DNA of 64,000 bases, from the NCBI RefSeq assembly GCF_001561955.1, contig NZ_CP014223.1, positions 1,426,001-1,490,000 of the forward strand. Reading direction: 5' to 3'. The DNA is from Anaerotignum propionicum DSM 1682 (GTDB lineage Bacteria > Bacillota > Clostridia > Lachnospirales > Anaerotignaceae). Of the stretch, positions 41,458-63,410 are shown in pieces; position 1 is the first letter of the stretch; every line of letters starts with the position of its first letter. Below the pieces are notes generated by a model. It saw only the letters and a list, made by a program, of their open reading frames with translations, ran no database searches and was not told the origin of the DNA. A program made the translations under genes and the position numbers.

Positions 41458-42187
41458 TCAAACAAAAAGCTTTGCAATATTAGCAAATAAAATGCAAACA
41501 GTAACGCCGATTGCCGTTGGAATGATTACGGCAAGTGCTGTCCATTTCCAACTGTTCGTTTCTTTTTTTATGGTAAGCAATGTAGTAGAGCAGGGCCAGT
41601 GCATGAGGGAAAACAACATGGTGCTGACTGCTGTAATCCAAGTCCAACCATGGCTGACGAATAATTCTTTTAATTGGGTAAGGCTATCTAGTTCAAGAAG
41701 GCTTCCTTGAGACATATAAGCCATGATTATAATTGGAATGACAATCTCGTTGGCAGGAAAACCCAAAATGAATGCCAGCAGAATAACACCGTCCAGTCCC
41801 ATCAATTGGGCGAAAGGATTTAAGAATGATGCACAATGATTCAGCACGCTTATATTGTTTATGCTTATGTTTGCCATGAGCCAAATCACTAAGCCTGCAG
41901 GAGCTGCCACCACGATTGCTCTGCCCAGAACAAATAAGGTTCTGTCAAAAATGGAGCGAACAATTACTTTGCCAATTTGAGGTCTTCGATAAGGAGGCAT
42001 CTCTAAAGTAAAGGAGGAGGGAACACCTTTCAAAATTGTATTGGAAAGTAATTTTGTTACAACGAAGGTCATTATAATTCCTAATAAAATAAAAGCAGTC
42101 AATAAAACAGAAGAAACAATGGAAGGGAAAATTCCACCCGCTGTACCCACAAAAAACATTGTAATCATTGCAATTAACGTTGGAAAT
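41458..42187 (-). pseudogene. feoB: FeoB ferrous-iron transporter, C-terminal fragment
   Basis: About 243 residues in the feoB frame: AFPTLIAMITMFFVG at the break, then the second half of the permease with MPPYRRPQIGKVIVRSI, GFPANEIVIPIIIM and SLMHWPCSTTLLTIKKET. The G domain and first half of the permease are missing, since the gene breaks at GRFP/TLIAM. The open frame continues a further 110 bases into the recombinase region but those residues are unrelated. The missing upstream piece of the permease is at 53343-53478 and ends exactly where this begins. Not functional as it stands. Confidence 0.93.
42182..42187. repeat. Candidate attachment site (left), GGAAAT
   Basis: The hexamer at the feoB break recurs at 53343-53348 in the same orientation. 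Fusing the two copies restores Gly-Arg-Phe-Pro-Thr-Leu-Ile in feoB. Confidence 0.75.
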
Positions 42188-42259
42188 GCGCCACCACCCA
42201 AAAGGAAATTTTGATGATGTAATAAACTTATGAACAAAAACTTGTATGCAGACAAGTTG

Positions 42260-43893
42260 CTATTCGCTGTAAATAAAAATATGCAGGTTTTCTCCATCCC
42301 ATATAATTTTATGTATGAGCAGTTTGATGAAGGTGCGCTTCTCCTGAATTGTCAGTTCAGAAAAGTTATCTGTTAAATTTGAGAGGCTAGAAATCAATAA
42401 ATCTTTTTTTCGTATTTGATCCTCTGTTGCAAAGATATCTTGTTCTGCTTGATATTGCTTTTGCTCCAGTTCAAATAATTCCTGCTCAAGATGCTGCATT
42501 TTTAAATTTATTTTTTCCAGAAGTATTGGGCTAGGCGTGCTTTCTGAAATTGAATTTACTAAATTATCTATTTCTACGTTACATTTTTTTATTTGAATTT
42601 GAATTCGTTCTAAGGGGTCATCCGTTTCTTCTTTTTGAATATTACGCTTTAGGTTTTCTAACAACTTAAAGATACTTGAATCTTCATTGATGTATTCCAT
42701 CAGATGCTGACAAACTGCATTATCCGTTTCCTGTCCATTTAAATTTTGGCAATTACAAAGATTTTTCCCACCACGAAGCTTGCTGTGGCAAATATAGTCA
42801 AACCATGCCGGGTTTGCATTTCTGCCTGAGCGCTGTTTTGCAAACATACGGCTACCACAGTTATCACAATAAACGAGACCTGAGAGCAGGGAATAGTCAT
42901 TATGTATTTTTGAAGGTTTTTTCCGGTAGGTATATTTTCCTCTAAAATGGCTTGGATTGCTACCCACTTTTTTCCCTCTATCCGCCCTCTGTGCCTTCCG
43001 ATGGAAATAATCCACTTATCAACGGATTGTCTTGGTGCATGCTTTTTCTTATAATCCCTTTTATTATAGGAAATAAGGCCATATTTATTGGAACAGTCCT
43101 TTTCTTCAAAACATACATCAGCGTTTTTTTTAACAAAATAGTTACGGGCATCTTGATCGGCAATGCAATATACTGGATTTTGTAATATGTTCTTAATACC
43201 AAGGAGGGAATAGAATTTGCCACTCCGCGACTTTATGTTTTGACTGATTAAATATTTACTTACACCGGAAATGCTTTTGCATTCTAAGTATTTTTCGAAA
43301 ATGAAGTCTATCGCAAAGAGTTCTGCCGGGTTATCTTTTAATTTACACGACGTCTTTACCTTGCCATCAATAATTATTTCTTGAAGTTTTTCAGAGGTAT
43401 ATCCAGTGGGGGTTGTGCCCCCCAACCAACGACCGGTGCGAGCCAACATCACCATATTATCACGCACCCTCTCTGCGATGGTTTCTCGCTCTAATTGGGC
43501 AAAAACAGAGGCGATAAACATCATTGCCTTTCCCATAGGTTTGGATGTATCAAATTCTTCTTTAATACAAATAAAGGAGATGTTTCGCTGGTTCAATTCT
43601 TCGATAAGTGAGGAAAAGTCACTTACATTACGACTAATACGGTCTAAGCGATAACAAACAATATAGTCAGGTTTTCTTATTTTAATATCGCCAAGCATAT
43701 GTTGGAATTGAGGTCTTTCCGTATTTTTGGCGGAAAAACCTTCATCTTCATAAATTGAAATATCATTATCTATAGCATCTGGGAATTTTGTATAGATATA
43801 TTGCTTACACATTTCAATTTGGTTATCAATGCTTTCACCTTTTCCTGTGTAAACAGATTTACGACTGTATATAAAAAACTTCATTCCTGCCAC
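42260..43893 (-). pseudogene. Large serine recombinase, frameshifted
   Basis: Reconstructed about 540 residues. The N-terminal catalytic domain has the nucleophile Ser in YSRKSVYTGKGESIDNQ (about 8-24) and YRLDRISRNVSDF. The recombinase domain follows (WLGGTTPTGY, VSKYLISQNIKSR). The zinc ribbon and coiled coil (LSGLVYCDNCGSRM, then CNVEIDNLVNSI) are in another frame. The change lies at 42907-42922, where the - strand has runs of six and five A. The domain order is that of TnpX and phage integrases that insert at short core sequences. It adjoins the left attachment site of the feoB insertion and is the likely integrase of that element. Confidence 0.88.
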
Positions 43894-44551
43894 CGCCTTT
43901 ATGTATCATAGAAACTTTGTTATAAGTTTTAACGTATTATTTTCTTGGGATTAATTTAAGATGAAACCACTTTAATCAGGGCTGAAAACCCTTTGCAAAG
44001 AGCTATTTTTAACCAAAATTTCTTAATTCCCCAACCAGTCTATAATGAGCGTTTCTTTGTCTAAGATATTTATATACATTCAGATGGGCAGACAGTAATA
44101 AAAATTCGCCGGTTTTAGTAATATCCTAAATCGGTGATAGAAAAACCTTATAATTATTTTATTACATGTATTCTTGTAATTAAGTAATATTTTTTGCACT
44201 GTGACACATGACACTATTTTAAGGTGGTTGTTTTGAGGTAAAATATAAATAGGTTGTAAATATAAGACGAAAATTGTCGAAAGAAAAATTTTTGGATTTG
44301 GTCATTTAGAAATGATAAACAGCTTTAAAAAAGGGGAGAGATTAAATATTAAAAACTAAAATGAAAGTATTACAGATGTAAAATGTAAGGATTAGTTAGA
44401 AATAGTGTGTGGATATGGCATGTAAAATTCAAGAGAGCTAAAAGAATTCATGAAATTGTTTTTTTGGTAGTTGCTTTTTTTAAAAAGAAGATTTGTGGGC
44501 AAAAAGCGTGATTTATTCCATACTGCATTTAAAAAGAGGGGAGAAATTAAT
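43894..44551. other. Gene-free intergenic region between recombinase and chemoreceptor
   Basis: About 660 AT-rich bases without a supported frame; a weak dyad AGGG/CCCT near 43978-43993. It should contain the divergent promoters of recombinase and chemoreceptor, but none is clear. Confidence 0.4.
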
Positions 44552-46348
44552 ATGAAACAGTGGTTTGAAAATTTAAAAATTTCTGGTAAATTGAGAACAG
44601 GATTTTTGTTAACATCCTTTCTTGGCGTAATCATTGGCATTGTTGGTATCATCAGCATGATAGGCATGATTCGAGGCCAGCAAAAAACATATGATGAAAC
44701 CACAATGGGAATGGTACATTCCTTAGAGGCGGAAAGCTCTTTCAAAGACCTGAGAAGATCGATTGTTTATCTCTATGTTTATTATGACACAGAGAAAGAA
44801 ATACGTTGCCAACAAATTTCAAGTGACTTGGAAAACACCCAAGGGCATTTAGATTCTTATGCGGCAACCATTTCCAACAGTCAGGATCAACAAAATTATG
44901 ATGCTACACGGGGAGCCTTTGAGGCCTACAAGAATGTTGCGGATGAAATTTTGAAAGTTGCACGGGCGGGTGAAACAAAGGAGAACTTGCTGACTTTAAT
45001 TGAGAAGGCGGCATCTTCTTCTCAAAATGCTTCCGATGCGTTTGGATCCTTATCTAAGTACAACGATACTATGGCAAAAGAAAAGCTTGCTAAGGATAAA
45101 TCAATGGCATGGATTGAATTGATTATTATGCTTGCTGTAATGATTGTATCCTTTATTATTTCGCAATTTTTGAGCAAGTACATAGCAGATAGTATAGGAA
45201 AACCGATGCAGAAGTTTGCCACCATTGCCAGTATGGTTGCTGTAGGTGACCTAGGTGTAAAAAAAGTTGCGGGGGAAGATGGGATAAAGTGGGCATTACG
45301 GCAGGATGAAGTTGGCGAGTTTGCCAGAGCGTTTGACCAGTTAGTTCTGAGCACTGATGAGCAGGCACAGAAAACAAGAGTTATAGCTGATGGTGATTTA
45401 ACCACCACAATTACGATTAGGTCAGATCAGGATGTTCTGGGCAAAGCGTTGACAGATTTGGTGGAAAAACTTCATACACTCATTTCTTCGGTATCAATCA
45501 CTGCGGAACAAGTGGGTATTGGTGCGGGACAGGTTTCTGACGGTGCGCAAGCGTTAGCCTCCGGTGCTACAGAGCAGGCTGCAACGATTGAAGAGCTGAC
45601 TGCCTCAGCAGTTAGTGTTACAGAGCAGGCAGTACAAAATTCTTACAGTGTGCAAAAGGCAGGAGACTATGTGTTGCAAGCTGCCCAGGGAGTTTCGTCC
45701 GGTAATCAGTATATGGATAAATTAAATAATGCTATGCAGGAAATCGGACAATCTTCTCAGGAAATATCAAAAATTACGAAGCTGGTTGAGGATATTGCTT
45801 TTCAAACAAATATCTTAGCCTTAAACGCTGCTGTAGAGGCTGCTCGTGCTGGAAATGCGGGCAAAGGCTTTGCAGTGGTAGCCGATGAAGTGCGTAATCT
45901 TGCGGCTAAATCTGCAGAAGCTGCTAAGCAGACTTCTCATCTGATTGAGAAATCTGTGTCCATCGTTTCTGAAGGGGAGCAGCTTGCAGAGGATACCCGA
46001 AAGCTTTTGGCTTCGGTAGGGGAAAAAACCAACATGGTTGTAACGTCAATTAAAGAAATCGAAACTGCATCAACAGAGCAGACAATGGCCATTGAGCAAA
46101 TCAATCAGGGACTTTCTCAGGTTTCGGCAGTGGTACAAACCAATGCTGCAACTGCGGAGGAGAGTTCCGCTTCCAGCGAAGAACTTGCCGCACAGGCACA
46201 AGTATTGCAGCAAGAGATTGGAAAATTTAAGTTACGCAACGATACAGAAAGTTACAAGATGTTTGGGCGAGACAGAAGTGCCTTTGGAGAGCAAAGGCTA
46301 GGTGGAGATTCTTATTTCAATGAAACAGATCATTATGAAAAATACTGA
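44552..46348 (+). CDS. Methyl-accepting chemotaxis protein with four-helix-bundle sensor
   Basis: 598 residues from ATG 44552, behind GAGGGGAG; residues encoded from 44471 are not receptor-like. Transmembrane helix 1 (about 18-40), a helical 4HB_MCP-type extracellular domain (about 45-185), helix 2 (about 190-210), HAMP ([20 protein letters not shown]) and the signalling domain with [20 protein letters not shown] at the tip. No pentapeptide CheR tether; the tail is Tyr/Asp rich. It is cargo of the feoB-inserted segment and differs in sensor type from the receptor at 30.4 kb. Confidence 0.92.
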
Positions 46349-46570
46349 TTTATTAGTTGAGAAAAGGGATAAAACAGGATAAAAATTAATAATGACCGTA
46401 GCTTTCCGTTTCCTGAGACTCTTTTTATCACGCTAAAAAAGGTTTTACACGAAATTAATTGTTTCTTTGGCAGAATTTAATAATGGTAAAGTTATACGTA
46501 ACAGAGGAAGTATTATTTCCCTTGATTGCTTTAGCAATCCCATGAAATTGCTTCAATGTGAATACAAAGC

Positions 46571-46612
46571 AAAAGGACGGCTCGATGTTTAAAGCAAAGA
46601 GTTGTCCTTTTA
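46571..46612. terminator. Hairpin AAAAGGAC/GTCCTTTT
   Basis: AAAAGGAC (46571-46578) pairs with GTCCTTTT (46604-46611) across a 25-base loop; it can serve as terminator for either strand, 220 bases after the chemoreceptor. Confidence 0.6.
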
Positions 46613-46766
46613 TATTGCAACTGCCACACCTAAAGCAATTAGGTTTGGGAATGATGCTTTAATATTCATATTTTCACCATTTTTAAGATTTAATAAATCT
46701 GGATTTGTATACCCAGTTCATTCTTTTCTGGGGAAGAATTGGAATGGGCGTGTACTTTTGTACTAA

Positions 46767-46961
46767 TTATAGACCAGCAGATTTTAGGTTATCTATGATT
46801 TTATCTAAAACTTCTAGTTTGTTTTTTTTCGATAGACCTGATTGCTTTAGTTTTCTTTCAATTATGTCAGTATGAAATACGACTATTTTATTGGAAAGGG
46901 GCTGCAAATCAAAGAGATCCGCTTTATGAACCATGACATTCTTTATTTTGTTTTTTCTCAT
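46767..46961 (-). CDS. Small helical protein of unknown function
   Basis: 64 residues with a good AAGGAGAGGG site before the ATG, which is why I accept it. The C-terminal part (LKQSGLSKKNKLEVLDKIID) forms a helical hairpin loosely like the short Spo0E-type phosphatases, but the diagnostic SQxxD motif is missing. It is the only - strand gene between the chemoreceptor and the sugar dehydrogenase. Function unknown. Confidence 0.5.
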   Translation of the reverse strand: MRKNKIKNVMVHKADLFDLQPLSNKIVVFHTDIIERKLKQSGLSKKNKLEVLDKIIDNLKSAGL

Positions 46962-47399
46962 GCATACCCTCTCCTTAAAAAATAGTATTTCTTAGTTAAG
47001 AATATGAAAGTGTTAACTTGACCTATACCCGTTACGTTGTAACATTACGGTAAAACGTCAGGCTTTGTTTTGCATTCATTTTATTTAAGAATTTGTAAGG
47101 AGAGGGTGCCTTGTCTTCCTATCATCTTAAATAAATAAAGATTCTATTTTGAAATGCTTTATGTTTCAATCTAATTCCTTGGATTTCAAGCAAACAAATC
47201 AAATTAATTTCCAATTTAATATTTTTGAGGATTTAAAATGGAAGAGAAAGAAATATTCATTTTTTGACAATAAACGAAATGAGATACTAATATGTAATCT
47301 AGTAAGAAAGCAATTTTTACACATGATTTAGTTTATTATCATATATAATGATAGGAAATATGGCAGGAAGTGCCGATAAAAAAGATTGGGGAGAAAATG

Positions 47400-48422
47400 A
47401 TGGTTAACAAAGAGCCTAATCAAGTTCAGAGTATTATAGAATACCTAAATATACCATGGGCAATAGATATTAGTGAAGACGGCAAGATATTTTTTACAGA
47501 GCGTGATGGAAAACTGCGTGTTATTACGGATGGAACTTTAAATCCTGTGCCTGTGTATACGTTTGTTCTGCCTTTTATTAGTAGCGGAGAGGGGGGGCTT
47601 ATGGGGATTGCTTTGGACAAAGATTTTCTTACAAACGGGTATATTTATCTTATGTACACTTATGGAGAGAAAGGAACGTTTTACAACAGAGTGGTGCGAA
47701 TGCGTATAGTGGGTGATACTGCTTTCAAGGAGGAGATTCTTTTGGACAGAATCCCCGGGGGACGCATTCATAATGGTGGCAGAATAAAAATTGGTCCGGA
47801 TGGCTATCTGTATATTGCTACCGGTGATGGAGGTGTTCGTGATCTTGCTCAGGATGTGAATAGCCTAGCAGGTAAAATATTGCGTATTGGGACTGATGGA
47901 AGCATTCCGCCCGACAATCCCTTTCCTGGTTCACCTGTTTATGCATTAGGATTGAGAAACCCTCAGGGGCTGGCTTGGAATGATAAAAATATGTTATATG
48001 CTACGGATCATGGAGAAACCAATCATGATGAAATTAATCTCATAGTACATGGTGGAAACTATGGCTGGCCGCTGGTTATTGGAGATGAGGAATTACTGGG
48101 ATTTGATTTCATTCAGCCTATCTTACAAAGCGGAGATGAAACATGGGCTCCCGGTGGGGCAGCTTTCATTAGCAGTGGTCCGAGAAAGGGGCAACTATTG
48201 GTATCTATGTTAAGAGGAAATGGGCTTTTGGCAATTACCTTTGATGAGACTGGAACACAGGTGGTTGATGTGGAGCCATTATTACTGGATACCTATGGTC
48301 GATTAAGGGAAGTATATCAGGCGAGTGATGGTTCCATTTACCTTACAACAAGCAATAAGGATGGTAGAGGGATTATACATTTTGGGGATGATAAGATACT
48401 CCAAATAGCACCTGAAATATGA
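47400..48422 (+). CDS. Soluble PQQ-dependent sugar dehydrogenase-type beta-propeller
   Basis: 340 residues from ATG 47400 (ATG 47397 is equally possible), behind GGGGAG. A six-bladed GSDH-like propeller: FFTERDGKLRVI, GEGGLMGIALDKDF, the catalytic-type His in GGRIHNGGRIKIGPDGYLY, GLRNPQGLAW and GGNYGWPL. Family members oxidise sugar aldehydes with PQQ and normally sit in the periplasm or outside. Here no signal peptide is seen, and PQQ is not expected in a fermentative anaerobe, so the substrate and cofactor are uncertain and another sugar or lactone hydrolytic role is possible. Single gene. Confidence 0.82.
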   Translation: MVNKEPNQVQSIIEYLNIPWAIDISEDGKIFFTERDGKLRVITDGTLNPVPVYTFVLPFISSGEGGLMGIALDKDFLTNGYIYLMYTYGEKGTFYNRVVRMRIVGDTAFKEEILLDRIPGGRIHNGGRIKIGPDGYLYIATGDGGVRDLAQDVNSLAGKILRIGTDGSIPPDNPFPGSPVYALGLRNPQGLAWNDKNMLYATDHGETNHDEINLIVHGGNYGWPLVIGDEELLGFDFIQPILQSGDETWAPGGAAFISSGPRKGQLLVSMLRGNGLLAITFDETGTQVVDVEPLLLDTYGRLREVYQASDGSIYLTTSNKDGRGIIHFGDDKILQIAPEI

Positions 48423-48845
48423 TCTTTGGGTAACGAGAAATAAATTTATTTTAGTATGGTAGTGTACATGATAACCAAAGCTCTGTCTCGCAATGGAGGA
48501 TTTTCCTTAAGAGAGGTAATTTAAAGGATGACAAAGATCGACTATATTTCACTGGATAATATAAACAGTTTTTATTTGTATATGTATAAGTATTAAATTG
48601 CGATTGAGTTACCATGAATTTGGGGATTCATAATTTCCTTGTTCAGGCTTGGGGTGCTTTATTTGAAAAAGTTATATAGTGAACCAATGAATTTGAATGA
48701 AATGAAATAACGTTATAACACATTGATTTATTTGGGGTGAACGTTGTATTATTTCATTAGAATAGTATCTATACTTCACGGAAAGGTGTTAGAACGATTG
48801 CTACAAAATCTAATTTATATTCCCCCGTTATGTTATACTAATTAG
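48423..48845. other. Gene-free stretch after the sugar dehydrogenase gene
   Basis: About 420 AT-rich bases in which I see no frame, repeat or known RNA. Confidence 0.4.
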
Positions 48846-48888
48846 AAAGCACCCGACGAATATCATTGGTATTTGTCGGGTGCTTTTG
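48846..48888. terminator. Bidirectional terminator between the sugar dehydrogenase and hydF
   Basis: AAAGCACCCGAC pairs with GTCGGGTGCTTT, extended by AAT/ATT, with T-runs on one side and A-runs on the other. It can end the hyd operon on the - strand. Confidence 0.85.
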
Positions 48889-49086
48889 TCTATATGGTTA
48901 AGTATAGCAAGGTAGGCTGAGACTTAGTTAGGGTTGCATTTAAGGTTGCAGGGCAGACCCCACGTCATTTTGTCGTCAAGCTCCCATTTTAGGTGGTTTT
49001 AATTTTGGTGAAAACAGTATCATAATTGAGCAACTGATTTTATAGGTTCAAAAGTCTTTGACCTCTAAAAGGATGAGAATAATAAC

Positions 49087-50298
49087 TCAGCTTGGAGGTT
49101 TCATTTCTGAAAGGAACTCTGGAAACACAGAAATACTTCGTTGTAAAATCCCTTGCATAAAGGCAATCAGAATGCCATAGTTTGTAAATGGAATGTTACT
49201 TTCTGCTGCGAATCTTTGCCGATATTTCATCTCTTTTTCGTTAAGCATGCATCCACCACAGTGAACAACCAATTGATAACTGGTAAGGTTGTCGGGAAAA
49301 TCATTGCCTGATGTAAATTCGAATTTGACATTTTTATTCGTGTAGCTTTTAATCCATTGGGGAAGTTTAACCGTCCCGATATCGTCGCATTGGCGATGAT
49401 GGGTACATCCTTCTGAAATGAGAATTTTATCTCCATCTTCGAGGAAGTCTAAAGTTTTTGCTCCATTCACAGCAGTTTTTAGAACACCTTTATAGCGGGC
49501 CATAAGGATAGAAAAAGAGGTGAGAAAGATATCCTCTGGGGTTTCGGCATTAATTTTATGAAACACTTGACTGTCAGTGATAACAATTCTAGGTTTTCTT
49601 CCTAAATTTCTTAGTGTTTCTGCAAATTCAGTTTCTTTCACTACAATGGAAATAGCATTTGCATCTAAAATATCCCGAATGGTTTGCTGCTGGGGCAAAA
49701 TCAATCTGCCTTTTGGGGCAGCTTTATCTATGGGCACTACCAGTATGGCATAGTCACAAGGATCTAAAATATCCCCCACAAGCCGAATCTTCGGGTTATC
49801 TGTTGTGATAAGCTTTGATAGTTTTTCTTTCAAAGCGTATATTTGTTCTCCTGTTTTTGCACTTACAAAAATGCTGTGCTCCTTTGGATTTTTATAGTAC
49901 TGAAGCAAATCGCACTTGTTAAAAACAAGAAGATATGGAATTTCTTTTTTTTGGAACAATTGAATGAGTGCTTCATCTTCCGTAGATTCTCCTTCTTTAG
50001 CATCCATTACAAGTACAGCAATATCAGTTTTGTTAAGTACTTGTTGTGCCTTTTTTATACGGAGTTCACCTAGTGCTCCTTCATCATCAATTCCCGGTGT
50101 GTCAATGAGCATTACTGGGCCAAGGGGAAGCAATTCCATTGCTTTATAAACGGGGTCGGTAGTGGTTCCTTTTGTATCAGAAACAATTGCTAAGTTTTGG
50201 TTGGTAATGGCATTCAAAATACTGGATTTTCCTGCGTTTCTTTTACCAAAAAACGCAATATGGATTCTATTTCCTGCCGGTGTTTCATTTAATCCCAT
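49087..50298 (-). CDS. hydF: [FeFe]-hydrogenase maturation GTPase HydF
   Basis: 403 residues. GTPase motifs are FFGKRNAGKSS (about 15-25), LIDTPG, FNKCDLL and SAKTGEQ. The C-terminal cluster-binding part has CTHHRQCDDIG and HCGGC, the CxHx46-53HCxxC ligand set of HydF. HydF is the scaffold on which HydE and HydG products build the 2Fe subcluster before transfer to HydA. It is the last gene of the operon, 9 bases after hydG. All three maturases are full length, but no hydrogenase structural gene is in the window. Confidence 0.95.
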   Translation of the reverse strand: MGLNETPAGNRIHIAFFGKRNAGKSSILNAITNQNLAIVSDTKGTTTDPVYKAMELLPLGPVMLIDTPGIDDEGALGELRIKKAQQVLNKTDIAVLVMDAKEGESTEDEALIQLFQKKEIPYLLVFNKCDLLQYYKNPKEHSIFVSAKTGEQIYALKEKLSKLITTDNPKIRLVGDILDPCDYAILVVPIDKAAPKGRLILPQQQTIRDILDANAISIVVKETEFAETLRNLGRKPRIVITDSQVFHKINAETPEDIFLTSFSILMARYKGVLKTAVNGAKTLDFLEDGDKILISEGCTHHRQCDDIGTVKLPQWIKSYTNKNVKFEFTSGNDFPDNLTSYQLVVHCGGCMLNEKEMKYRQRFAAESNIPFTNYGILIAFMQGILQRSISVFPEFLSEMKPPS

Positions 50299-50307
50299 TT
50301 GAACCTC

Positions 50308-51726
50308 CTAAAACCTAAAATCACGGCTTCCACTGCCGATTTTTTCAAGATTCTCAATAACAATATTTCTAACTTTTTCATTTGGAACGTTTCTAATTTC
50401 ATCCAGAATCAATTGATTCCCCAGATTACTTGTTTCGGAGGAAGCATAGTCCTCCAAATATTCTTTCAAAGTCATTAAAGCATTGGGATGACAACAATTC
50501 TGTATTTGTCCGCTTTTCAAAAGCTGCATGAAGCGGTCACCCGTTCTGCCTTCTCTATAGCAAGCTGTGCAAAAGCTGGGAATATATCCTAATTCCATTA
50601 ACCATTTTACAACTTCATCTAGTGTTCTATTATCATTGGGCTGAAATTGTGAAGAATCTTCATCTTCTGGCTCTGCCGCAGCATAGCCGCCTACACTTGT
50701 TTTAGAGCCACCGCTTATCTGAGATACACCAAGATGGAGAACCCTTTCCCTGCATTCTTTACTCTCCCGTGTGGAAACAATCATTCCGGTGTAAGGCACA
50801 CTGATTCTAATGCAAGCCACTAGCTTTGCAAAGGTATCATCATCAATACCATTATCAAAAGTAGAAGGGTCAATATCATCTGCGGGGCGGATTCTGGGCA
50901 CGCTAATTGTATGAGGGCCAACGCCAAATGCAGTTTCTAAATGCTCAGCATGCATGAGTAGGGCAGAAAACTCATAGCGATACAATTCCAGACCAAACAA
51001 TACGCCAATGCCTACATCGTCAATGCCACCTTCCATGGCTCTGTCCATGGCTTCCGTATGATAAGCATAATCATGTTTTGGGCCGGTTGGATGTAGTTTT
51101 TCATAGCTGTCTTTGTGATAGGTCTCCTGAAATAAAATATAGGTGCCTATGCCAGCTTCATTTAATTTTCTATAATTTTCAACGGAAGTGGCAGCGATAT
51201 TTACATTTACACGGCGGATAGCACCATTTTTGTGCTTCACACTGTAGATTGTTTTTATGGACTCCAATATATATTCAATGGGATTGTTTATGGGGTCTTC
51301 GCCTGCCTCTAATGCAAGTCTTTTGTGTCCCATATCCTGCAATGCAATGGTTTCCCGTCTAATTTCATCTTGGGTCATTTTTTTTCTGGCAATATGTTTA
51401 TTTTTCAGGTGATACGGACAGTAAACACATCCGTTTATACAATAATTGGATAAATAAAGCGGAGCGAACATGACAATACGATTTCCGTAAAAGTCTTTTT
51501 TAATCTGTTCAGCCAGCGCATATATTTCTTGATTTTTCTCTTCAATTTGACAATCCAATAGTACAGCAGCCTCTCTGTGGGTGAGGCCTTTTTTTAGGCG
51601 AGCTTTCTCAATGATTACATCAATGAGTTCTACATTGTTTTTATTTTCCTCTGCGTATTTCAGTGTTGCCAACACCTCATCGTGGCAGATAAATTCTTCT
51701 GCTTTGTTTGATTTGGGATTATACAT
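50308..51726 (-). CDS. hydG: [FeFe]-hydrogenase maturase HydG (tyrosine lyase)
   Basis: 472 residues, as expected. The radical SAM motif is CINGCVYCPYH (about 105); the second, CO/CN-forming cluster is held by the C-terminal CTACYREGRTGDRFM and a later Cys (NCCHPNALMTL). It cleaves tyrosine to p-cresol and dehydroglycine, giving the CO and CN ligands as an Fe(CO)(CN) synthon. The presence of the C-terminal cluster distinguishes it from ThiH. Between hydE and hydF in the operon. Confidence 0.96.
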   Translation of the reverse strand: MYNPKSNKAEEFICHDEVLATLKYAEENKNNVELIDVIIEKARLKKGLTHREAAVLLDCQIEEKNQEIYALAEQIKKDFYGNRIVMFAPLYLSNYCINGCVYCPYHLKNKHIARKKMTQDEIRRETIALQDMGHKRLALEAGEDPINNPIEYILESIKTIYSVKHKNGAIRRVNVNIAATSVENYRKLNEAGIGTYILFQETYHKDSYEKLHPTGPKHDYAYHTEAMDRAMEGGIDDVGIGVLFGLELYRYEFSALLMHAEHLETAFGVGPHTISVPRIRPADDIDPSTFDNGIDDDTFAKLVACIRISVPYTGMIVSTRESKECRERVLHLGVSQISGGSKTSVGGYAAAEPEDEDSSQFQPNDNRTLDEVVKWLMELGYIPSFCTACYREGRTGDRFMQLLKSGQIQNCCHPNALMTLKEYLEDYASSETSNLGNQLILDEIRNVPNEKVRNIVIENLEKIGSGSRDFRF

Positions 51727-51776
51727 TTTTTTATCCTTTCTTATTCGGGTCAGATATTCTTCCCCGTCAGTTTAAT

Positions 51777-52820
51777 TTATTGCAAAGAAATACAGTCACC
51801 ACGGGATACCACAACTTGGTATCCTATGCTTTCCATTCTCTTTTGCATACAAAATCTGCATTCAGCGGCTTCGTCGCCGGTGCAAATTTTATTGTCGTAT
51901 AACATATATTTGTTTCTTACCGAAACAGGTGATAGATTTGGCATTACAACATTGCCGCCGGCTAAAATGCCAAGTTCTCTTCCCAAGGGATCAATGGTGC
52001 CCAAAGCTGTTGTAGAAGGGAGAAGAACCTCAGGAGAGAGTAACCGAATAAGCCCCAGCATAAACAGCGTTAATTCCAAGGAACCCTTTGCTTCCTTAGC
52101 AAACGGTGTTTGGTGGTGGGGTATAAAAGGGCCAATGCCAACCATATGAGGCTGTAATTCTTTTATAAAAAGCAAATCCTCTACAAGATTGTCCACTGTT
52201 TGAAAGGGAGAACCTACCATAAAGCCAGCCCCAACCTGAAATCCAATTTGCTTTAAATCAAAAAGGCATGCCTTACGGCTGGCTAAGGTAAGGTTTGGGG
52301 GATGCAGCATTTTGTAATGTTGCGCATTGGCTGTTTCATGGCGCAAAAGATATCTTTCCGCTCCCGCATTGAAGAATGCCAAATAGCTTTCATGACTCCG
52401 TTCCCCAATGGATAGGGTAATGGCACAATCGGAATGTTGTTTTTTAATTGAAGTTATAATGTGCACTAATTTTTCATCGGAAAAATAAGAATCTTCACCA
52501 CCTTGGAGTACAAAGGTTCTAAAACCAAGGTCATAACCGGTTTGGCAACAGATTAATATATCATCTTCTGATAGTCTATACCGTTGCACTTTGGAATTGC
52601 TTTTTCTAATTCCGCAATAATAGCAATCGTTTTTACAGTAATTTGTGAATTCAATGAGCCCTCTCATATAAATATCGTTACCGTAATGTGTCATTCTTAC
52701 TTGACGAGATTTTTCAAAAAGATATTCAGCAAGTTCAGGGGTTCTTCCTTGGATGAGAGCCTTGAATTCTTCTGACTTAAGCTCCTTGTTTAAATATAAT
52801 TTATCTATGAGTTCTTTCAT
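51777..52820 (-). CDS. hydE: [FeFe]-hydrogenase maturase HydE
   Basis: 347 residues. Radical SAM motif CKNDCYYCGIRKSN (about 62-75), with a TFVLQGGEDSYF strand and IGPFIPHHQTPF near the barrel's far end, all typical of HydE rather than BioB. A C-terminal cysteine group (AAECRFCMQKR) may bind an accessory cluster. It acts on the HydG-derived complex to supply the dithiolate bridge. Its start follows the TM1266-like gene by one base and hydG lies 50 bases downstream. Confidence 0.95.
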   Translation of the reverse strand: MKELIDKLYLNKELKSEEFKALIQGRTPELAEYLFEKSRQVRMTHYGNDIYMRGLIEFTNYCKNDCYYCGIRKSNSKVQRYRLSEDDILICCQTGYDLGFRTFVLQGGEDSYFSDEKLVHIITSIKKQHSDCAITLSIGERSHESYLAFFNAGAERYLLRHETANAQHYKMLHPPNLTLASRKACLFDLKQIGFQVGAGFMVGSPFQTVDNLVEDLLFIKELQPHMVGIGPFIPHHQTPFAKEAKGSLELTLFMLGLIRLLSPEVLLPSTTALGTIDPLGRELGILAGGNVVMPNLSPVSVRNKYMLYDNKICTGDEAAECRFCMQKRMESIGYQVVVSRGDCISLQ

Positions 52821-52821
52821 T

Positions 52822-53088
52822 TCATTCCTCTTCTATTTTTGCAGAATACTTTGAATATACCGCTTTGGTACTGACACCGGGTAGCTTTCCAAGCTTACCT
52901 GATAATGTACTGATAATATCGTTAGGCGCATCCACAACAACACAAATGATGTTTATGTCCTTTTCTCTATATGGAATGCCCATTCTTCCTATGATATAAG
53001 CACCATAGTCATGAAGAATATTATTTAATTTTTCAACCGAATCAACTTCTTCAACGATAACTCCAATAATTGCAACTCTGGTTTCCAT
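52822..53088 (-). CDS. TM1266-type iron-only hydrogenase system regulator
   Basis: 88 residues, ferredoxin-like ACT/NikR-C fold: VAIIGVIVEEVDSVEKLNNI, then the hallmark YIIGRMGIPYREKDINII and SGKLGKLPGVSTKAVY. The family always accompanies hydE, hydF and hydG and is thought to regulate or modulate them; no DNA-binding domain is present. First gene of the operon, ending one base before hydE. Preceded by a leader with attenuator-like features and a good promoter. Confidence 0.9.
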   Translation of the reverse strand: METRVAIIGVIVEEVDSVEKLNNILHDYGAYIIGRMGIPYREKDINIICVVVDAPNDIISTLSGKLGKLPGVSTKAVYSKYSAKIEEE

Positions 53089-53211
53089 AAGATTAGCTCC
53101 TTTTTCATTTTATAGCAAAAAAAAAATACGCCCAAAGGCGCAGTTTCCCATAATGAATTATGTGACCGCAAGCCTTTCACCTCATATCCTGTATTTGGTG
53201 TCAGTGGTTAC
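53089..53211 (-). promoter_or_regulatory. Leader RNA with terminator-like hairpin before the hyd operon (candidate riboswitch or attenuator)
   Basis: From the predicted start near 53211 the transcript runs about 120 bases to the regulator gene. It contains CACC/GGTG and GTGA/TCAC dyads, ATAAT/ATTAT, and then a hairpin TGCGCC/GGCGTA (- strand, about 53142-53127) with a run of about ten U before the ribosome binding site AAAGGAGC. That is a premature terminator. The upstream part has unpaired purine-rich segments (CAGGATATGAGG, GGGAAACTG) like aptamers. It matches no family I can name securely. Confidence 0.5.
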
Positions 53212-53217
53212 TTATTT

Positions 53218-53246
53218 AGTATATACAATTTTAGTCTTTTTTACAA
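53218..53246 (-). promoter_or_regulatory. Promoter of the hyd operon
   Basis: On the - strand: TTGTAA (53246-53241), 17-base spacer, TATACT (53223-53218). Confidence 0.7.
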
Positions 53247-53342
53247 TGGTTAACTACTTTTTTAAATATTAATTTTCAGGTTTCCTAAAGACGGTTTTCT
53301 TTGTTAACATTCCAAAACAATTCTTTCCCTTAGTATGGTTGC

Positions 53343-53348
53343 GGAAAT
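53343..53348. repeat. Candidate attachment site (right), GGAAAT
   Basis: Second copy of the hexamer at the feoB break, 11,161 bases from the first, same orientation. Confidence 0.75.
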
Positions 53349-53478
53349 CTACCGTTGCAGGGTACAAAATTGTTTGTGAGGATTGCCAGTAAACGTTCCC
53401 TAGGTGAGTCGATAATGCGACAGCCAACAATTCCTGCGGCATTGCATCCGAATCCCATACACATGGTGTTAATAATTT
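53343..53478 (-). pseudogene. feoB: FeoB internal fragment (permease gate region)
   Basis: The - strand reads [29 protein letters not shown] and [11 protein letters not shown], the conserved gate segment of FeoB. It ends in GRFP at the GGAAAT site; the C-terminal fragment at 42187 resumes with TLIAM. Upstream it breaks off within about 15 codons, at the stop of the second serine recombinase gene. It lies in a frame with no start and was therefore easily missed. The N-terminal GTPase half is not in the window. Confidence 0.9.
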
Positions 53479-53482
53479 TGTA

Positions 53483-54886
53483 TTATAATCTCCATTTGAT
53501 TTCCACGTTTTTGCCATCAATTTTAATACACTCAATGAGGGTTGCAATCAACATTCTTTTGGCATCTAAATCGAAGGTTTCAAAATAGGTTTCAAAAGTG
53601 TTTAAAGTGTCAATAAAATTGGCGGCTGTGTGGATTTTGTCCTCTTTGACATTCTGTCTTTCAAGTAGCATATTTTTTTCTTGGACTAGGGCTTCCACCT
53701 TGCTTGTCAAAATCTCCATAGGTAGGGTACCCACTTGGTACAAATCAATTAACTTGCTTAGCTGCTTGTTTATACTTTCCATGCGGGCATTGACTTTTTT
53801 TGTGTCTACAAAATCATCTTTATTTGGCTTTATTTTTGAGGTAAGTTGGTGAATCATTTCCTTGTTTCCAATCAACTCTCTGATGGTTTCCACTACAAGG
53901 GTATCCAGTTCTACAATATTCCAGTTTTCATTTTTACAGTTTGGATCCGTAATGAATTTTTTAGAAGATTTGGAGCGAGAATAGCACTTGTAATAGCCAT
54001 GGTTTGCACTATATCTTGCGCCACAGCGGGAGCAGTAAATGAAGCTGGATAAGAGATATCCCCCACGAAAAGGAGACTTTTGCGCTGTGGTTTTTCTGTT
54101 TTCTCTTTCTTTGGAGTAAAGTAGATGTTGTACCTCTTTGAATTGCTCCGGAGAAATAATAGATGTGTGTTTTCCGTCATATTGGATACCTTTAAACTGC
54201 ACTTTGCCAATATAAATTCTGTTTTTTAATGCATTACGAACTGCTGTGGCCGTCCAGTTTCGGTTCTCATATTTTCCCCTCATTATTTTTGTAATTGCAT
54301 TCATGCTTTTCCCTGTGATGAATAAATCGAATATTTCCTCAATTTGCATTGCCTCATATTCGTTCACCAATAATTCTCCGTTTACATAATCATATCCATA
54401 GGGAGAATTTCCACCGCCGTGAAAGTAACCTGCTTTTCCTCGACCAATTCTGCCCATTGTAAATCTCTCTGTAATCTGATCTTTTTCCAGCTGAGCAAAG
54501 ACCGATAAAATCCCAATCATTGCCCGCCCGAAAGGGGTAGAGGTATCAAAATTTTCGTTAATGGATACGAAATCCACGTTATTGGAGAGGAACTCGTCCT
54601 CAATTAGCATAAGGGTATCTTTTTGACTGCGGCTTAATCGGTCAAGCTTATAAACGATGACAGCATTAATGTCTGCCTTTTTCATATCCTCTAGCATTTG
54701 CCGTAAAGCAGGGCGGTTGGTATTGCCTCCTGAGAAGCCGCCATCGGTATAGATTTTTACCAATACCCAGCCTTTTGCTTTGCAATATGCCGTAAGACGG
54801 TCGATTTGCTCGTCAATGCTGTAATTCTCAAGCTGATTATCGGTGGATACACGGACATAGCCAAAAACCATATATTTTTCATTCAT
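53483..54886 (-). CDS. Large serine recombinase, intact
   Basis: 467 residues. Catalytic domain with YVRVSTDNQLENYSIDEQ (Ser about 13) and YKLDRLSRSQKDTLMLIED. The recombinase domain has GGGNSPYGYDY and the zinc ribbon CSRCGARYSANHGYYKC (about 285-305). A coiled coil (about 360-420) and a C-terminal barrel follow. Enzymes of this type integrate and excise phages and conjugative or mobilisable elements by two-base staggered cuts. The stop is within five codons of an internal feoB fragment, so feoB is probably also the target of this enzyme. Start ATG 54886 with AAAGGAGATG upstream. Unrelated in detail to the recombinase at 42.3 kb. Confidence 0.95.
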   Translation of the reverse strand: MNEKYMVFGYVRVSTDNQLENYSIDEQIDRLTAYCKAKGWVLVKIYTDGGFSGGNTNRPALRQMLEDMKKADINAVIVYKLDRLSRSQKDTLMLIEDEFLSNNVDFVSINENFDTSTPFGRAMIGILSVFAQLEKDQITERFTMGRIGRGKAGYFHGGGNSPYGYDYVNGELLVNEYEAMQIEEIFDLFITGKSMNAITKIMRGKYENRNWTATAVRNALKNRIYIGKVQFKGIQYDGKHTSIISPEQFKEVQHLLYSKERENRKTTAQKSPFRGGYLLSSFIYCSRCGARYSANHGYYKCYSRSKSSKKFITDPNCKNENWNIVELDTLVVETIRELIGNKEMIHQLTSKIKPNKDDFVDTKKVNARMESINKQLSKLIDLYQVGTLPMEILTSKVEALVQEKNMLLERQNVKEDKIHTAANFIDTLNTFETYFETFDLDAKRMLIATLIECIKIDGKNVEIKWRL

Positions 54887-55567
54887 TTGGGCATCTCCTT
54901 TAAACAGACTCCCTTAAGTTTTACTTCTAATTTTGTGAGATGGCATAGTTATCTTGATTTCACTTCATAAACATGAGTGGCTCATCACAAGCTGTGTGAG
55001 CCAATAGTGTAAAATTTTGAATTGTTTCTATAGGGAACCTTCTTTTTTAAACATTTTGATAGCGTCAAAAAATCAGTTATATAAAACTCTATTACACATT
55101 AAACAAATATAGAAATAACTTTTGACTTTTAGCCTTTTACGGTGATGCCATTCCTAGGCTTAATATTTCTTGCTTTCATGAGAAATCCTTTTTCCTTATT
55201 TCAGAAATCCTTGATATGAAAAGAGAGACTTTCAAAGCTTTCTTCAACAACGTCTTATTAAAAAAACTGAAAAACTTCAAATGCAGTTTATAAGGAATTG
55301 GTAGACCAATGAAATGAGTTTCCTTACCTTTTTATTTACTGGTGAAATGTTAGAATGAAAGGAAAGGAGAATTGATAGAAAAAAAGCAAAATGTGCTGCC
55401 GAAACAAAATAGGGGAGTAGGTATAAAAATTGCAAAGACGCTGAATGTGTTGGAATCTAAGGTGCAGATATCGTGGGAATTCATTTAATTCATCCTTAAA
55501 GAAAGGACAGTATGTACACGCATAGGACAATTTTTTTAATACATAAGTATAAGCAGGAGGTGTTGGT
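54887..55567. other. Gene-free region upstream of the serine recombinase
   Basis: About 680 AT-rich bases with no supported frame. It presumably holds the recombinase promoter and perhaps the second end of its element, but no repeat of the feoB sequence was found. Confidence 0.4.
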
Positions 55568-55732
55568 ATGAAAGAAAAAGAAACAAAGGGAAAAGGGAAA
55601 ATTACGCATATCATGGCTAATGGTGAAGTTAGAGATAGCGTTGCCGGTTACTTAACCAGTGTGGACCAACTGCCCGAAGCTGCAAGACGATTACTTAGTG
55701 ATATGTTTCAGGGGAAACATCAAAAAAAATGA
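55568..55732 (+). CDS. Small mobile-element protein, BOW99_gp33-like
   Basis: 54 residues from ATG 55568, behind AGGAGGTG. The core ITHIMANGEVRDSVAGYL matches short proteins that occur with large serine recombinases and phage genes in Clostridia; a charged N-terminus (KEKETKGKGK) precedes it. Function unknown; it may accompany recombinase control. It is too short for many gene finders. Its presence supports the view that the DNA right of the second recombinase is also mobile. Confidence 0.6.
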   Translation: MKEKETKGKGKITHIMANGEVRDSVAGYLTSVDQLPEAARRLLSDMFQGKHQKK

Positions 55733-55926
55733 TTCTAATTAAACTGAATGGGCGCAAGCCCTTAGGGCGGACGAGCCTTTAAAAGGATAAATTTATAAAC
55801 GGAAATTAAATGATGGATTGATTAACCAATGGAATATGATCCATAAATTAAGTTGCTATTTCGAAATACTAAAAATAACCACCACCATCCTTTTTAGTCA
55901 AACATTGGATTATTTGGGGTATAACG

Positions 55927-55971
55927 AAAAAAAGCCGATGTACTGATTTTAAAGTACATTAGCTTTTTTGT
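55927..55971. terminator. Bidirectional terminator before the histidine kinase gene
   Basis: AAAAAAGC and ATGTACT pair with AGTACAT and GCTTTTTT, with one mismatch region; T-runs on both strands. It ends the sensor/ABC operon read on the - strand. Confidence 0.85.
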
Positions 55972-55981
55972 AATTATTAGC

Positions 55982-57346
55982 TTAGCTATTATTTTTTAAT
56001 ATTTTTATAGAAACGATTGCACCTTTTGCATCAATTTGATTTTTCAATTCAAGGATTCCTTGGTGAATTTCCGCAATGGCTTTTGCGAAACTTAAACCTA
56101 AACCATAGTGCTGATTTGTTCGTGAGGTGTCTTCTGTAAAAAATTCTTGTGTTGCCTTTTTTAAACTTTCCTCAGAAAACCCCTTTCCTGTATCGGCAAT
56201 ATGGAATATAATGTAAGATTCGTTTTCCGTAATGGTAAAGTCAATTTCAGAATTAGTATCGGAATAGCGAACAGCATTATCAACAATATTCATAATTGCT
56301 CTTTTCAACAATGCACCATCTACATAAATGGTATCGTATTTTACAGTATTTTTTAACTGAAACACTATATTTTTAGTTTTGCAAAGTGCCACTGACTCAG
56401 TAGAAACATCATGAAGGAAGTTTCTTAGAGAAATCACGTTTTTATCAATGTGTATCGAATTGTTATTAACAACACTCATTAGCAATTCCAAATATTTTTC
56501 AATGGTATCTGAGCTTGATTGAATGTAAGTAATAAGCTCTTTATTCTCTTTGGAAGAGCCACTTTCTTCTAATAATTCAGCATTTCCTTTAATCACAGTC
56601 AAAGGAGTTTTAATATCATGAGCCAATGCAGAAAGTTGTGATTTCTTTTGTTGTTCCTTGTTCCATTGCTCTTTCAGTGAGGAAGATAACGCAACTTTTA
56701 ACTTTTCAATGGTATTTAAAACAGAATTAAATTCCGAAATTTGAGTAGGGGTAATATCAAAATCTAAATCTTGATTTCCTATTTTTTCTGTGGTTGTGAT
56801 AATAGAAATCAAACTCTGTTTTAATTTTTTACTAAACTTTGAAGCTGTGATAACTGCAAACAAAATGACACATCCAAGAAGTAAAAGCAACATCAAAAGC
56901 TCAGGATAAGGAATCATTTTATGCAGGAGGGGATTCCTGAAATGGGCAAGTAAATCATACTGAATAATAATGATATTGCCATTCATTTGTGTTATTTCTT
57001 TATAAAAATCATAGTAGGATTTATTGCCACTTAACAAATATGATTTTGTTTTATTTAAATCCTTTTCGGTCATATCACTATCAAAAACCTTACCATTTAC
57101 GTCTACAACAACATAGCTGCAATAAGGAGGCAATAATGTACTATCAAAATCCTCAATGAAAGTTTCTTCTAATTGATTTAATTTTACATCCGTATAATTT
57201 GCCGGTAAAACAAAACCGGATTGAAAAGAAACAGAAATAATGATAATAAATGCCATGATTAAACCTATAATGGCAACGGAAAGTCCAATCAAATGCTCTA
57301 AAAATAATCTATATATGGAAATTGTTTTTTTCTTTCTTATTTCCAT
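55982..57346 (-). CDS. Sensor histidine kinase
   Basis: 454 residues. Two transmembrane helices (about 18-40 and 150-170) enclose an extracytoplasmic loop of about 110 residues. HAMP-like linker, phospho-acceptor His in ALAHDIKTPLTVIKG (about 240), N box NIVDNAVRYS, G1 DTGKGF and G2 HYGLGLSFAK. It overlaps the response regulator gene by 10 bases. The adjacent exporter suggests it senses antimicrobial peptides, like CprK, LanK or BceS-type kinases. The loop is too large for the loopless BceS type, so direct sensing is plausible. Confidence 0.9.
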   Translation of the reverse strand: MEIRKKKTISIYRLFLEHLIGLSVAIIGLIMAFIIIISVSFQSGFVLPANYTDVKLNQLEETFIEDFDSTLLPPYCSYVVVDVNGKVFDSDMTEKDLNKTKSYLLSGNKSYYDFYKEITQMNGNIIIIQYDLLAHFRNPLLHKMIPYPELLMLLLLLGCVILFAVITASKFSKKLKQSLISIITTTEKIGNQDLDFDITPTQISEFNSVLNTIEKLKVALSSSLKEQWNKEQQKKSQLSALAHDIKTPLTVIKGNAELLEESGSSKENKELITYIQSSSDTIEKYLELLMSVVNNNSIHIDKNVISLRNFLHDVSTESVALCKTKNIVFQLKNTVKYDTIYVDGALLKRAIMNIVDNAVRYSDTNSEIDFTITENESYIIFHIADTGKGFSEESLKKATQEFFTEDTSRTNQHYGLGLSFAKAIAEIHQGILELKNQIDAKGAIVSIKILKNNS

Positions 57347-57996
57347 TTATAGCCCACCCCCCAAACCGTTTCTATGGGACAATCTATGACGGCATTAAAT
57401 TTACTGCGAATATTTTTTATGTGTACACGAATGGAGGAAATATCGCTTTCAGAATGGAAACCAAATATTTTCTCCAATATATTTTCCAGTGAAAAAATCT
57501 GCCCCTTATTTCTTGCCAAAAGCTCACAAATTTCATATTCACTTTTGGTTAAGCTTATCAGATTGTTTTTAACTGTTACAGTTTTTTCTGATAAATCAAA
57601 AACACAATCATTTAGAATTAAACTCTGGTGTTTGTCCCTATGTTCTCTGCGTATATGTGCATTGACTCTTGCTCTTAGTTCCCATACGTTAAATGGCTTT
57701 TTGATATAATCATCACCGCCCACAGATAATCCTTCGATGACATCTTGTTCCATTGTTTTAGCTGTTAAAAATAAAATGGGGCAATCAATCATATCTCTAT
57801 AATTTCTACAAAAGGTTATGCCGTTAAGTTGAGGCATCATAATATCCAAGAGAATCAAATCAATCTGTTTAAAGTCTTTTACTGCAACTTCTGTTGCAAA
57901 GTTTTTTGTTATAACAATATGTCCATCTCTTAAGAGTGCGGTTTCAATTAGTTTACAAATTGCAATATCATCATCAATAACAAGAATTTTCGCCAT
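57337..57996 (-). CDS. OmpR/PhoB-family response regulator
   Basis: 219 residues. Receiver domain with acidic pocket VIDDD, phospho-acceptor Asp in DLILLDIMMPQ (about 53) and Lys in KKPFNVWELRARV (about 100). The C-terminal winged helix (about 125-219) has SEYEICELLARNKGQI and the recognition helix in SSIRVHIKNIRSK. Partner of the overlapping kinase gene. It should activate the exporter genes that lie 16 bases upstream in the same operon. Confidence 0.93.
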   Translation of the reverse strand: MAKILVIDDDIAICKLIETALLRDGHIVITKNFATEVAVKDFKQIDLILLDIMMPQLNGITFCRNYRDMIDCPILFLTAKTMEQDVIEGLSVGGDDYIKKPFNVWELRARVNAHIRREHRDKHQSLILNDCVFDLSEKTVTVKNNLISLTKSEYEICELLARNKGQIFSLENILEKIFGFHSESDISSIRVHIKNIRSKFNAVIDCPIETVWGVGYKWK

Positions 57997-58011
57997 AGGA
58001 TCTCCTAACTT

Positions 58012-60187: not shown

Positions 60188-60287
60188 ATAAATTCCTCTC
60201 TTTTCTTTGTGATATAACAAGAATAAAAAATATTTATAAAGAAAGTATAAAGATTTTAAAAGTTCTATTTCAATAACTGTAATCATC

Positions 60288-61701: not shown

Positions 61702-61927
61702 CGAAAATATCAGAGGTATCGTATTTGGAAGTCGTTGTTAATCTATTTAAAAGATTACAGTGAGTTCAAATAAAAGTAGTGGATTATGAATAAGGATGCC
61801 GTAATCTTCTATAAGTTGAAATTCTATTCGCATTTAAGCCAAATTGAGGTGATAACCCTAGAAAAAAAGTACCATTAATCTTTTGTGTGTGAGAAGAGTG
61901 GAGGGATAAAAACCATTAAGAATCGGA

Positions 61928-61949
61928 GTGTAAAGGGATTGCTTTACAC
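61928..61949. repeat. Palindrome upstream of the aminotransferase gene
   Basis: GTGTAAAG (61928-61935) pairs with CTTTACAC (61942-61949) across six bases, 53 bases before the start. A regulator-binding site is likelier than a terminator because no T-run follows. Confidence 0.5.
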
Positions 61950-62001
61950 CAACGTCAAAGGTATTAGGTGGCTATTGTATGATGACTAGGGAGGAATACA
62001 T

Positions 62002-63354: not shown

Positions 63355-63378
63355 TAGAACCTAATTGAACAATGTTTT

Positions 63379-63410
63379 CCCCACATGGCAACGACTATTT
63401 CCATGTGGGG
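63379..63410. terminator. Strong hairpin after patA
   Basis: CCCCACATGG (63379-63388) pairs perfectly with CCATGTGGGG (63401-63410). Only a weak T-rich tail follows (TAGATGATAATTTTG), so it may attenuate rather than stop transcription into the next gene. Confidence 0.65.

Follow-up and report, generated by a model that had tools for sequence, protein, structure and literature searches.

Can a gene that has been broken up by inserted DNA still be put together again? The question is raised by feoB, a gene for ferrous-iron uptake, in Anaerotignum propionicum DSM 1682 (genome G000 of our set; 3.12 Mb in a single contig, C1). The stretch analysed, 64,000 nucleotides from position 1426001 to 1490000 of that contig, is called the window here, and coordinates refer to it unless the genome is named. 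A preliminary description had feoB split by one 11.16-kb segment and likened this segment to site-specific insertions whose removal restores the gene that they interrupt. The likeness is well supported by our analysis, with attP-like symmetry at the junctions, frame-exact rejoining, intact orthologues in relatives and elements with related recombinases at the same site in other genera. We favor, with a probability of about two in three, the reading that the DNA interrupting feoB consists of excisable gene-intervening elements and not of dead insertions.

The feoB gene lies in three pieces separated by two elements

The split is real, but only half of it had been seen, as a second element with a large serine recombinase (LSR) and codons 1-434 of the gene lie further on. 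On the minus strand, feoB is found in three pieces separated by two DNA elements (Table 1). The 5' piece (codons 1-434), preceded by feoA, lies outside the window and runs from genome position 1499580 down to 1498279. Element 2, of 18,817 bp, separates it from a short middle piece, and element 1, of 11,161 bp, separates the middle piece from the 3' piece, which shows no insertion or deletion relative to its counterparts in relatives. The preliminary description had correctly read the minus strand from 53478 to 53343 into one break, with TLIAMITMFF continuing from the other, although the first of these stretches is just the middle fragment. The motif GGAAAT indeed occurs at both breaks in the same orientation (plus strand, 42182-42187 and 53343-53348, with a spacing of 11,161 bp). 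When the flanks were cut and joined in silico at both cores, the reading frame was kept, as had been described, and 714 codons were obtained, with 561/714 residues identical to the intact orthologue of genome G004 and 0 gaps.

Two further claims were not supported. Removing the 11-kb segment would by itself leave feoB broken because the second insertion begins 112 bp away; both elements would have to leave. Nor is this feoB supported as the main Fe2+ uptake gene, as the FeoB_C domain is found at four places in the genome and the interrupted gene is one of these, leaving three other feoB loci. No tRNA gene that could act as an attachment site was found in the window, where the only RNA family detected was one ZTP riboswitch.

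Recombinases and attachment sites

LSR2, the recombinase of element 2, carries Resolvase, Recombinase and zinc-ribbon domains (Pfam) in one intact protein and belongs to the phage integrase family phrog_95 (PHROGs). It was rejected as a Ccr recombinase (CcrB 176.9 bits for a cut-off of 900, CcrA 117.9 for 700, CcrC 114.1 for 900) and as a member of the XisF family of fdxN-type elements (157.9 bits for a cut-off of 375). The recombinase gene of element 1, LSR1, stops at 42260, at the described distance of 73 bp from the break, but is not one open frame as sequenced. The same three domains are present in two overlapping frames, Resolvase and Recombinase in 42739-43893 and the zinc ribbon in 42260-43015. 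The frameshift could be genuine or stem from a mistake in the assembly, and LSR1 is not taken as dead because coaBC, in the same window (24153-25400, plus strand), is likewise frameshifted. This presumably essential gene reads as two frames that meet near 25200, next to a short run of A, which suggests small indel errors in the assembly.

The attP sites implied by the junctions are symmetric. Around a central TT, attP1 matches its own reverse complement at 16/24 arm positions, and attP2 is symmetric around TG at 23/29 arm positions (20 of the first 24). The symmetry of attP1 exceeds chance, as only 0.02% of the window positions reach at least 16/24 and none reaches 18/24. The implied attB sites are hardly symmetric (10/24 and 14/30), a score of 10/24 being reached by ~9% of the window positions. 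At both sites, an imperfect inverted repeat around a 2-bp core thus accompanies a frame-exact attB. Arms resembling those of attP1 are also visible by eye at the element junctions of another genus of the same family, called g12 here, and in three of its genomes (G018, G040 and G045) TT alone is common to both sides of the junctions when these are read by eye. The working core of site 1 is therefore probably these two bases, and not the whole GGAAAT hexamer that had been taken for it.

Divergent from LSR2 lies an open reading frame (ORF) for a 54-amino-acid protein of the BOW99_gp33 family, which we regard as a candidate recombination directionality factor of element 2. This ORF adjoins LSR2 in 4/4 of the elements found in the genus, including one of only 2.8 kb. 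Relatives at E <=0.01 were found in 63 of the 138 sequences searched (duplicates counted), but element 1, the g12 elements and the G063 locus gave no such match. Another small ORF, of 81-96 amino acids, is common to two LSR2 elements (L112, 1954-2199, and L111, 11336-11626, both on the minus strand); its L112 copy had no family match in PHROGs or NCBIfam.

Interrupted and intact feoB genes in Anaerotignum

Seven of the eight genomes of the genus have this feoB orthologue, while G006 has only a 42%-identical relative. The gene is intact in three of the seven (G001, G004 and G007, with frames of 722-726 codons) and interrupted in G000, G002, G003 and G005. LSR2 is present in all four interrupted genomes (4/8), the other three copies being 77-80% identical to that of G000, and lies directly at the same feoB break in two of these three relatives, the G003 locus being rearranged. 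The element at feoB measures 2.8 kb in G005, where LSR2 and the 54-amino-acid ORF are joined by short ORFs and a gene for a cold-shock-domain protein, 5.2 kb in G002, where it carries an HDOD/EAL protein, and 18.8 kb in G000. In G003, one locus (L110) holds the 5' piece with an attL arm and another (L111) the middle and 3' pieces with an attR arm; transport-type genes, as named from ORF reading, lie between LSR2 and the 3' piece, and the rearrangement is inside the element.

The feoB pieces that were read in G000, G002, G003 and G005, the middle piece of G005 included, contain no stop codon or indel; the 3' piece of G005 lies beyond its contig end. Pairwise nonsynonymous divergence (dN) of the 3' piece was 0.08-0.11 among interrupted species and 0.13-0.14 between intact ones, hence no higher, and nonsynonymous change was as far below the neutral expectation in interrupted pairs as in an intact pair. 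In the rpoB tree, interrupted and intact species stand side by side (G005 with G007, G000 with G001). This alternation implies repeated gains, repeated precise losses, or both.

Selection on both feoB halves in genus g12

All five g12 genomes of our set are interrupted at feoB site 1. The 3' half is on the same contig as the 5' half in G018, G032 and G045 and on another contig with LSR1 in G040; in G049, where the contig ends, it was not found. LSR1 and rpoB gave the same unrooted branching in g12, with the fork next to G049 weakly supported, and synonymous divergence in the closest pair was nearly equal for the two genes (0.41 for LSR1, 0.40 for rpoB). The interruption thus looks as old as the genus. 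In codon alignments, the feoB halves (10 N-terminal and 6 C-terminal pairs) had 0 gap codons, against 3-11 for LSR1. In the C halves, 15 nonsynonymous codons were counted between G032 and G045 where 51.1 were expected neutrally, and 43 between G018 and G040 where 87.2 were expected, counts as low being reached in 0/5000 simulations in either case. By these comparisons, both halves are under purifying selection. Absence of stops alone had a neutral probability of 0.03 for G018-G040.

The C half has no in-frame start other than an internal ATG in three of the four g12 genomes in which it was read (G032, G045 and G040). Selection on a 3' half that is unable to start alone is best explained by rejoining. 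In G018, two tandem element copies alike at 8,530/8,531 bases are found with an attP junction between them, which may reflect recent recombination or a circular form caught in the assembly. The G032 element carries an AAA ATPase and VWA/CoxE-like and HAD-type proteins, and similar ORFs are present in G018.

Recurrence in wider Clostridia

An order-level sample of 392 genomes gave close FeoB-N matches in 70 genomes, at 71 places. The match reached query residue 436 or beyond at 66 of the 71 places, and 13 of these 66 lay in frames of only 443-484 codons, a count defined by that range, with frames such as 605-651 codons falling outside it. At 12 of the 13 short-frame loci, a relative of LSR1 or LSR2 was present at the locus or on the contig of the 3' piece (G003 and G040). 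In G031, site 2 is followed by a ParA-like gene, and the stretch read contained no LSR.

Of the 44 LSR2-family loci in named genome contigs, 27 were no more than 120 bp away from a break of feoB at site 2 and 17 were not; for three of these 27, the contig is that of G002, G005 or G063 once more. The codons aligned at the break were 421-438, except at L231 where the alignment ran to 476, and the recombinase pointed into the 3' half in 14 loci and faced the 5' half in 13. Site 2 is taken up by prophages in G205 (about 49.5 kb) and G217 (about 41.7 kb), next to relatives of LSR2 with 55.6% identity; all 8 prophage proteins scanned matched head, portal, tail, lysis or terminase families. A small element at L254 with an endolysin-type gene is a prophage remnant. 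On viral contigs, 2 of 80 LSR2-family loci were at a feoB break, and 25 of the contigs end within 40 bp of the LSR.

Relatives of LSR1 at about 70% identity occupy feoB site 1 in G144, G231 and G022, and a G334 contig ends at the site 1 point. The G144 and G231 loci, 99% alike over 38 kb, have feoB in four pieces (L349 and L350; L383 and L384), with three inserts, each bearing a recombinase, at codons about 54, 434 and 474. Another serine recombinase lies next to the third site, the one near codon 54, and site 2 is occupied by a different LSR, about 25% identical to LSR2. Cargo at site 1 includes an ABC sugar-type transporter and alpha-amylase-family genes in G144 and a TRAP transporter in G022. 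For G284 (LSR1 relative at 73%), 6.2 kb were read and contained no feoB. Outside g12, members of the LSR1 family at about 55% identity or below had no feoB in their ~1.5-kb flanks, a weak negative as four of the five g12 loci likewise showed none, and 4 weak relatives were obtained when viral contigs were scanned with the LSR1 alignment of g12. As read from these loci, both feoB sites are insertion hotspots.

Other arrangements of feoB were also seen in the sample. In five genomes of one family, the FeoB-N match reached only residue 243-246, and in one of them (G094, L195) two adjacent frames with no insert divide FeoB at codon about 245. At L242, a feoB 3' half is directly followed by a 5' half on the same strand, and at L196 (G223) a feoB fragment (codons 396-437) lies upstream of an intact feoB; both could be tandem feoB genes or recombination leftovers.

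Proposed mechanism and alternative explanations

The insertions, the attP-like symmetry, the frame-exact empty sites and the repeated use of the sites by the same recombinase families in other genera are shown by the assemblies compared. Two different LSR elements have inserted by attP x attB recombination at two sites in feoB, 114 bp from each other and in a stretch of the gene that is highly conserved. We infer that the reverse reaction, carried out by the LSR with a directionality factor (perhaps the 54-amino-acid protein for element 2), could still remove the elements precisely, and that removal, at least in related lineages, would be frequent enough to keep the feoB pieces under selection. 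Exit of element 1 in G000 would need an intact LSR1 in the living strain, or LSR1 supplied in trans. Integration and excision would be catalysed by the encoded LSR, a point on which the attP junction between the tandem copies of G018 bears only indirectly.

Several points weigh against excisable elements. Excision is here a prediction from assembled sequence. LSR1 is frameshifted as sequenced, and the role of the 54-amino-acid protein is one of association, with no relative found in element 1 or in the g12 elements. The host has three other feoB loci and selection on the interrupted copy may thus be weak, and four of the five g12 genomes have a further FeoB relative, at 32-34% identity and in a frame of 679-720 codons, so that necessity is harder to claim. 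The absence of stops in the closest g12 pair, G032-G045, is not striking (P = 0.07), and the C half of G018 has an upstream ATG preceded by a purine-rich stretch. Within the genus of A. propionicum, with four LSR2 copies only and an rpoB tree in which interrupted and intact species alternate, the insertions may have been independent, and in G003 the feoB pieces are on different contigs, LSR2 lying 5.4 kb from the 3' piece. The other feoB loci, the LSR1 frameshift, the second FeoB relative of g12 and the rearranged G003 locus, together with the use of site 2 by prophages, would fit ordinary selfish insertion, where feoB merely serves as attB of phage-type integrases, a dispensable copy slowly decays, and elements are lost never or by accident. 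We consider such a history rather unlikely, as no stop or indel has appeared in the pieces from four interrupted genomes of one genus or in the g12 halves, and as purifying selection is strong across the element-bearing g12 lineages.

Could the halves work as separately translated polypeptides, with no rejoining of the DNA? The split FeoB of G094 could be seen as a precedent, the 3' frame of G000 extends 55 codons upstream and holds an ATG, and G018 has its ATG just upstream. The breaks, however, fall inside the membrane Gate domain, a middle piece of some 37 codons would also have to be supplied in G000, and the lack of a start codon in three of the four g12 3' halves rules this explanation out as the main one; we regard it as very improbable. 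An assembly artefact, or a set of unrelated rearrangements, is barely credible. The coaBC frameshift shows that small indel errors are possible in this window, but the genome is one contig, the same type of junction recurs in independent assemblies and the att symmetry is specific.

Beyond the reading as excisable elements, the interruption of feoB might act as a heritable, reversible switch on ferrous-iron uptake in Clostridia. LSR elements would then persist in two or three attB sites of this one transporter gene for as long as a genus exists, and their excision, controlled by the cell or by iron, would reassemble the gene in part of the population. We put this forward tentatively, as a possibility that falls short of even odds.

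Cargo of the elements and other features of the window

Element 1 carries genes for maturation of [FeFe]-hydrogenase. A nucleotide-level search of the genus found no second match to this part in the G000 genome. The hydEFG genes were rejected as a sign of native chromosome, as the same 4.1-kb block is present at other places, without feoB, in G001 (77% identity) and G002 (81%); they may be cargo, or a block that moved. Besides the genes of Table 1, element 2 carries genes for a LuxR-type regulator, an aminotransferase, an aldehyde dehydrogenase, a Na+/H+ antiporter-like protein, a sigma factor, an amidase and a glyoxalase-family protein; three of its proteins have no Pfam match. Phage structural genes were found neither among the 8 query proteins of element 1 (LSR1 counted as two) nor among the 13 cargo proteins of element 2 in a Pfam scan that did not extend to small ORFs.

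Table 1. Coordinates in the window of the feoB pieces, the two elements, their junctions and their genes
Feature	Position	Strand	Description
feoB 3' piece	41458..42186	-	240 codons, from TLIA to stop; open; FeoB_C and Gate domains (Pfam)
Right junction of element 1 (attR1)	42166..42215	-	Core TT at 42186-42185 (minus strand)
Element 1	42187..53347		11,161 bp; feoB site 1, within codons for GRFPT
LSR1 gene	42260..43893	-	Frameshifted near 42917 as sequenced, so that the frames 42739-43893 and 42260-43015 overlap
Methyl-accepting chemotaxis protein	44471..46348	+	Element 1 cargo; Pfam
Glucose/sorbosone dehydrogenase-like protein	47370..48422	+	Element 1 cargo; Pfam
HydF, [FeFe]-hydrogenase maturation GTPase	49087..50298	-	Element 1 cargo; NCBIfam TIGR03918, 574.7 bits (cut-off 325.55)
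HydG, radical SAM maturase	50308..51726	-	Element 1 cargo; NCBIfam TIGR03955, 926.8 bits
HydE, radical SAM maturase	51777..52820	-	Element 1 cargo; NCBIfam TIGR03956, 590.4 bits
TM1266-like putative hydrogenase-system regulator	52822..53088	-	Element 1 cargo; Pfam PF21699
Left junction of element 1 (attL1)	53330..53370	-	Core TT at 53347-53346 (minus strand)
feoB middle piece	53348..53459	-	112 bp between both cores; most of GFGCN...NGR
Right junction of element 2 (attR2)	53448..53480	-	Core TG at 53461-53460 (minus strand)
Element 2	53462..64000		Continues to about G000:C1:1498278; 18,817 bp in total
LSR2 gene	53483..54886	-	Intact, 467 amino acids; ends about 20 bp from site-2 core; Pfam
54-amino-acid ORF, BOW99_gp33 family	55568..55732	+	Divergent from LSR2; NCBIfam NF047423, 29 bits (cut-off 27)
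Histidine kinase, response regulator, two proteins with no Pfam match, ABC-transporter ATPase	55982..60286	-	Element 2 cargo; Pfam

Elsewhere in the window, an AAA ATPase gene shows PtuA/AriA-like matches and the gene after it PtuB- and PDC-M62B-like ones (7869-10368, plus strand), and an upstream ORF (5665-7815) has weak matches only; together these are a candidate anti-phage system. The ORF at 12553-13683 (plus strand) strongly matches the PADLOC candidate defence family PDC-S11 (488.9 bits). The ZMP/ZTP riboswitch (37945-38026, plus strand, 58.6 bits) lies upstream of a radical-SAM activase and glycyl-radical-enzyme pair, so named from ORF reading.

Relation to known elements and significance

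SCC cassettes combine a Ccr serine recombinase with variable cargo at one chromosomal site. The feoB elements resemble them in having a serine recombinase and variable cargo and differ in targeting the interior of a conserved gene. Insertion within a coding sequence whose frame is restored by excision, as known for skin, gin and the comK prophage, was reproduced here in silico, with G000 needing both excisions. The known excisable gene-intervening elements lie in sporulation, competence, nitrogen-fixation or DNA-repair genes (PMC8987985). The LSR-bearing skin(Cd) element of Clostridioides difficile lies within the coding sequence of sigK, its precise excision restores the gene, and it encodes a 72-amino-acid directionality factor, CD1234 (PMC5025042). 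Whereas skin(Cd) interrupts the gene of a sporulation sigma factor, our case concerns an iron transporter gene that is hit at two sites, with excision a prediction. The candidate factor of element 2 has 54 amino acids and is of the BOW99_gp33 family. The gin element in gerE of Bacillus cereus is a serine-recombinase gene-intervening element with no phage genes and of varying content, like those of feoB, but has three serine recombinases, with GirC acting together with GirX, in a sporulation-specific program, whereas elements 1 and 2 have one LSR each (PMC5595907). The comK prophage of Listeria resembles the feoB case as a prophage in a non-sporulation gene (PMC8987985, PMC10794523). Elements 1 and 2 differ from it in having no phage structural genes among the proteins scanned, while prophages do occupy site 2 in relatives.

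Insertion into feoB was not reported in the titles and abstract openings of the literature searched, a coverage without subscription papers and preprints, nor in passages of papers listed for prophages and attB sites. The kind of element is already known; the feoB target, the stacking at several attB sites and the apparent age of the g12 interruption were not found in that literature.

These results make an iron transporter gene a recurrent target, with two main sites used by different LSRs and a third in G144 and G231, for elements that may carry next to no cargo or else prophages or genes for hydrogenase maturation or sugar uptake. Serine integrases with defined natural attachment sites are gained, and a DNA-level switch on bacterial iron uptake becomes a testable question.

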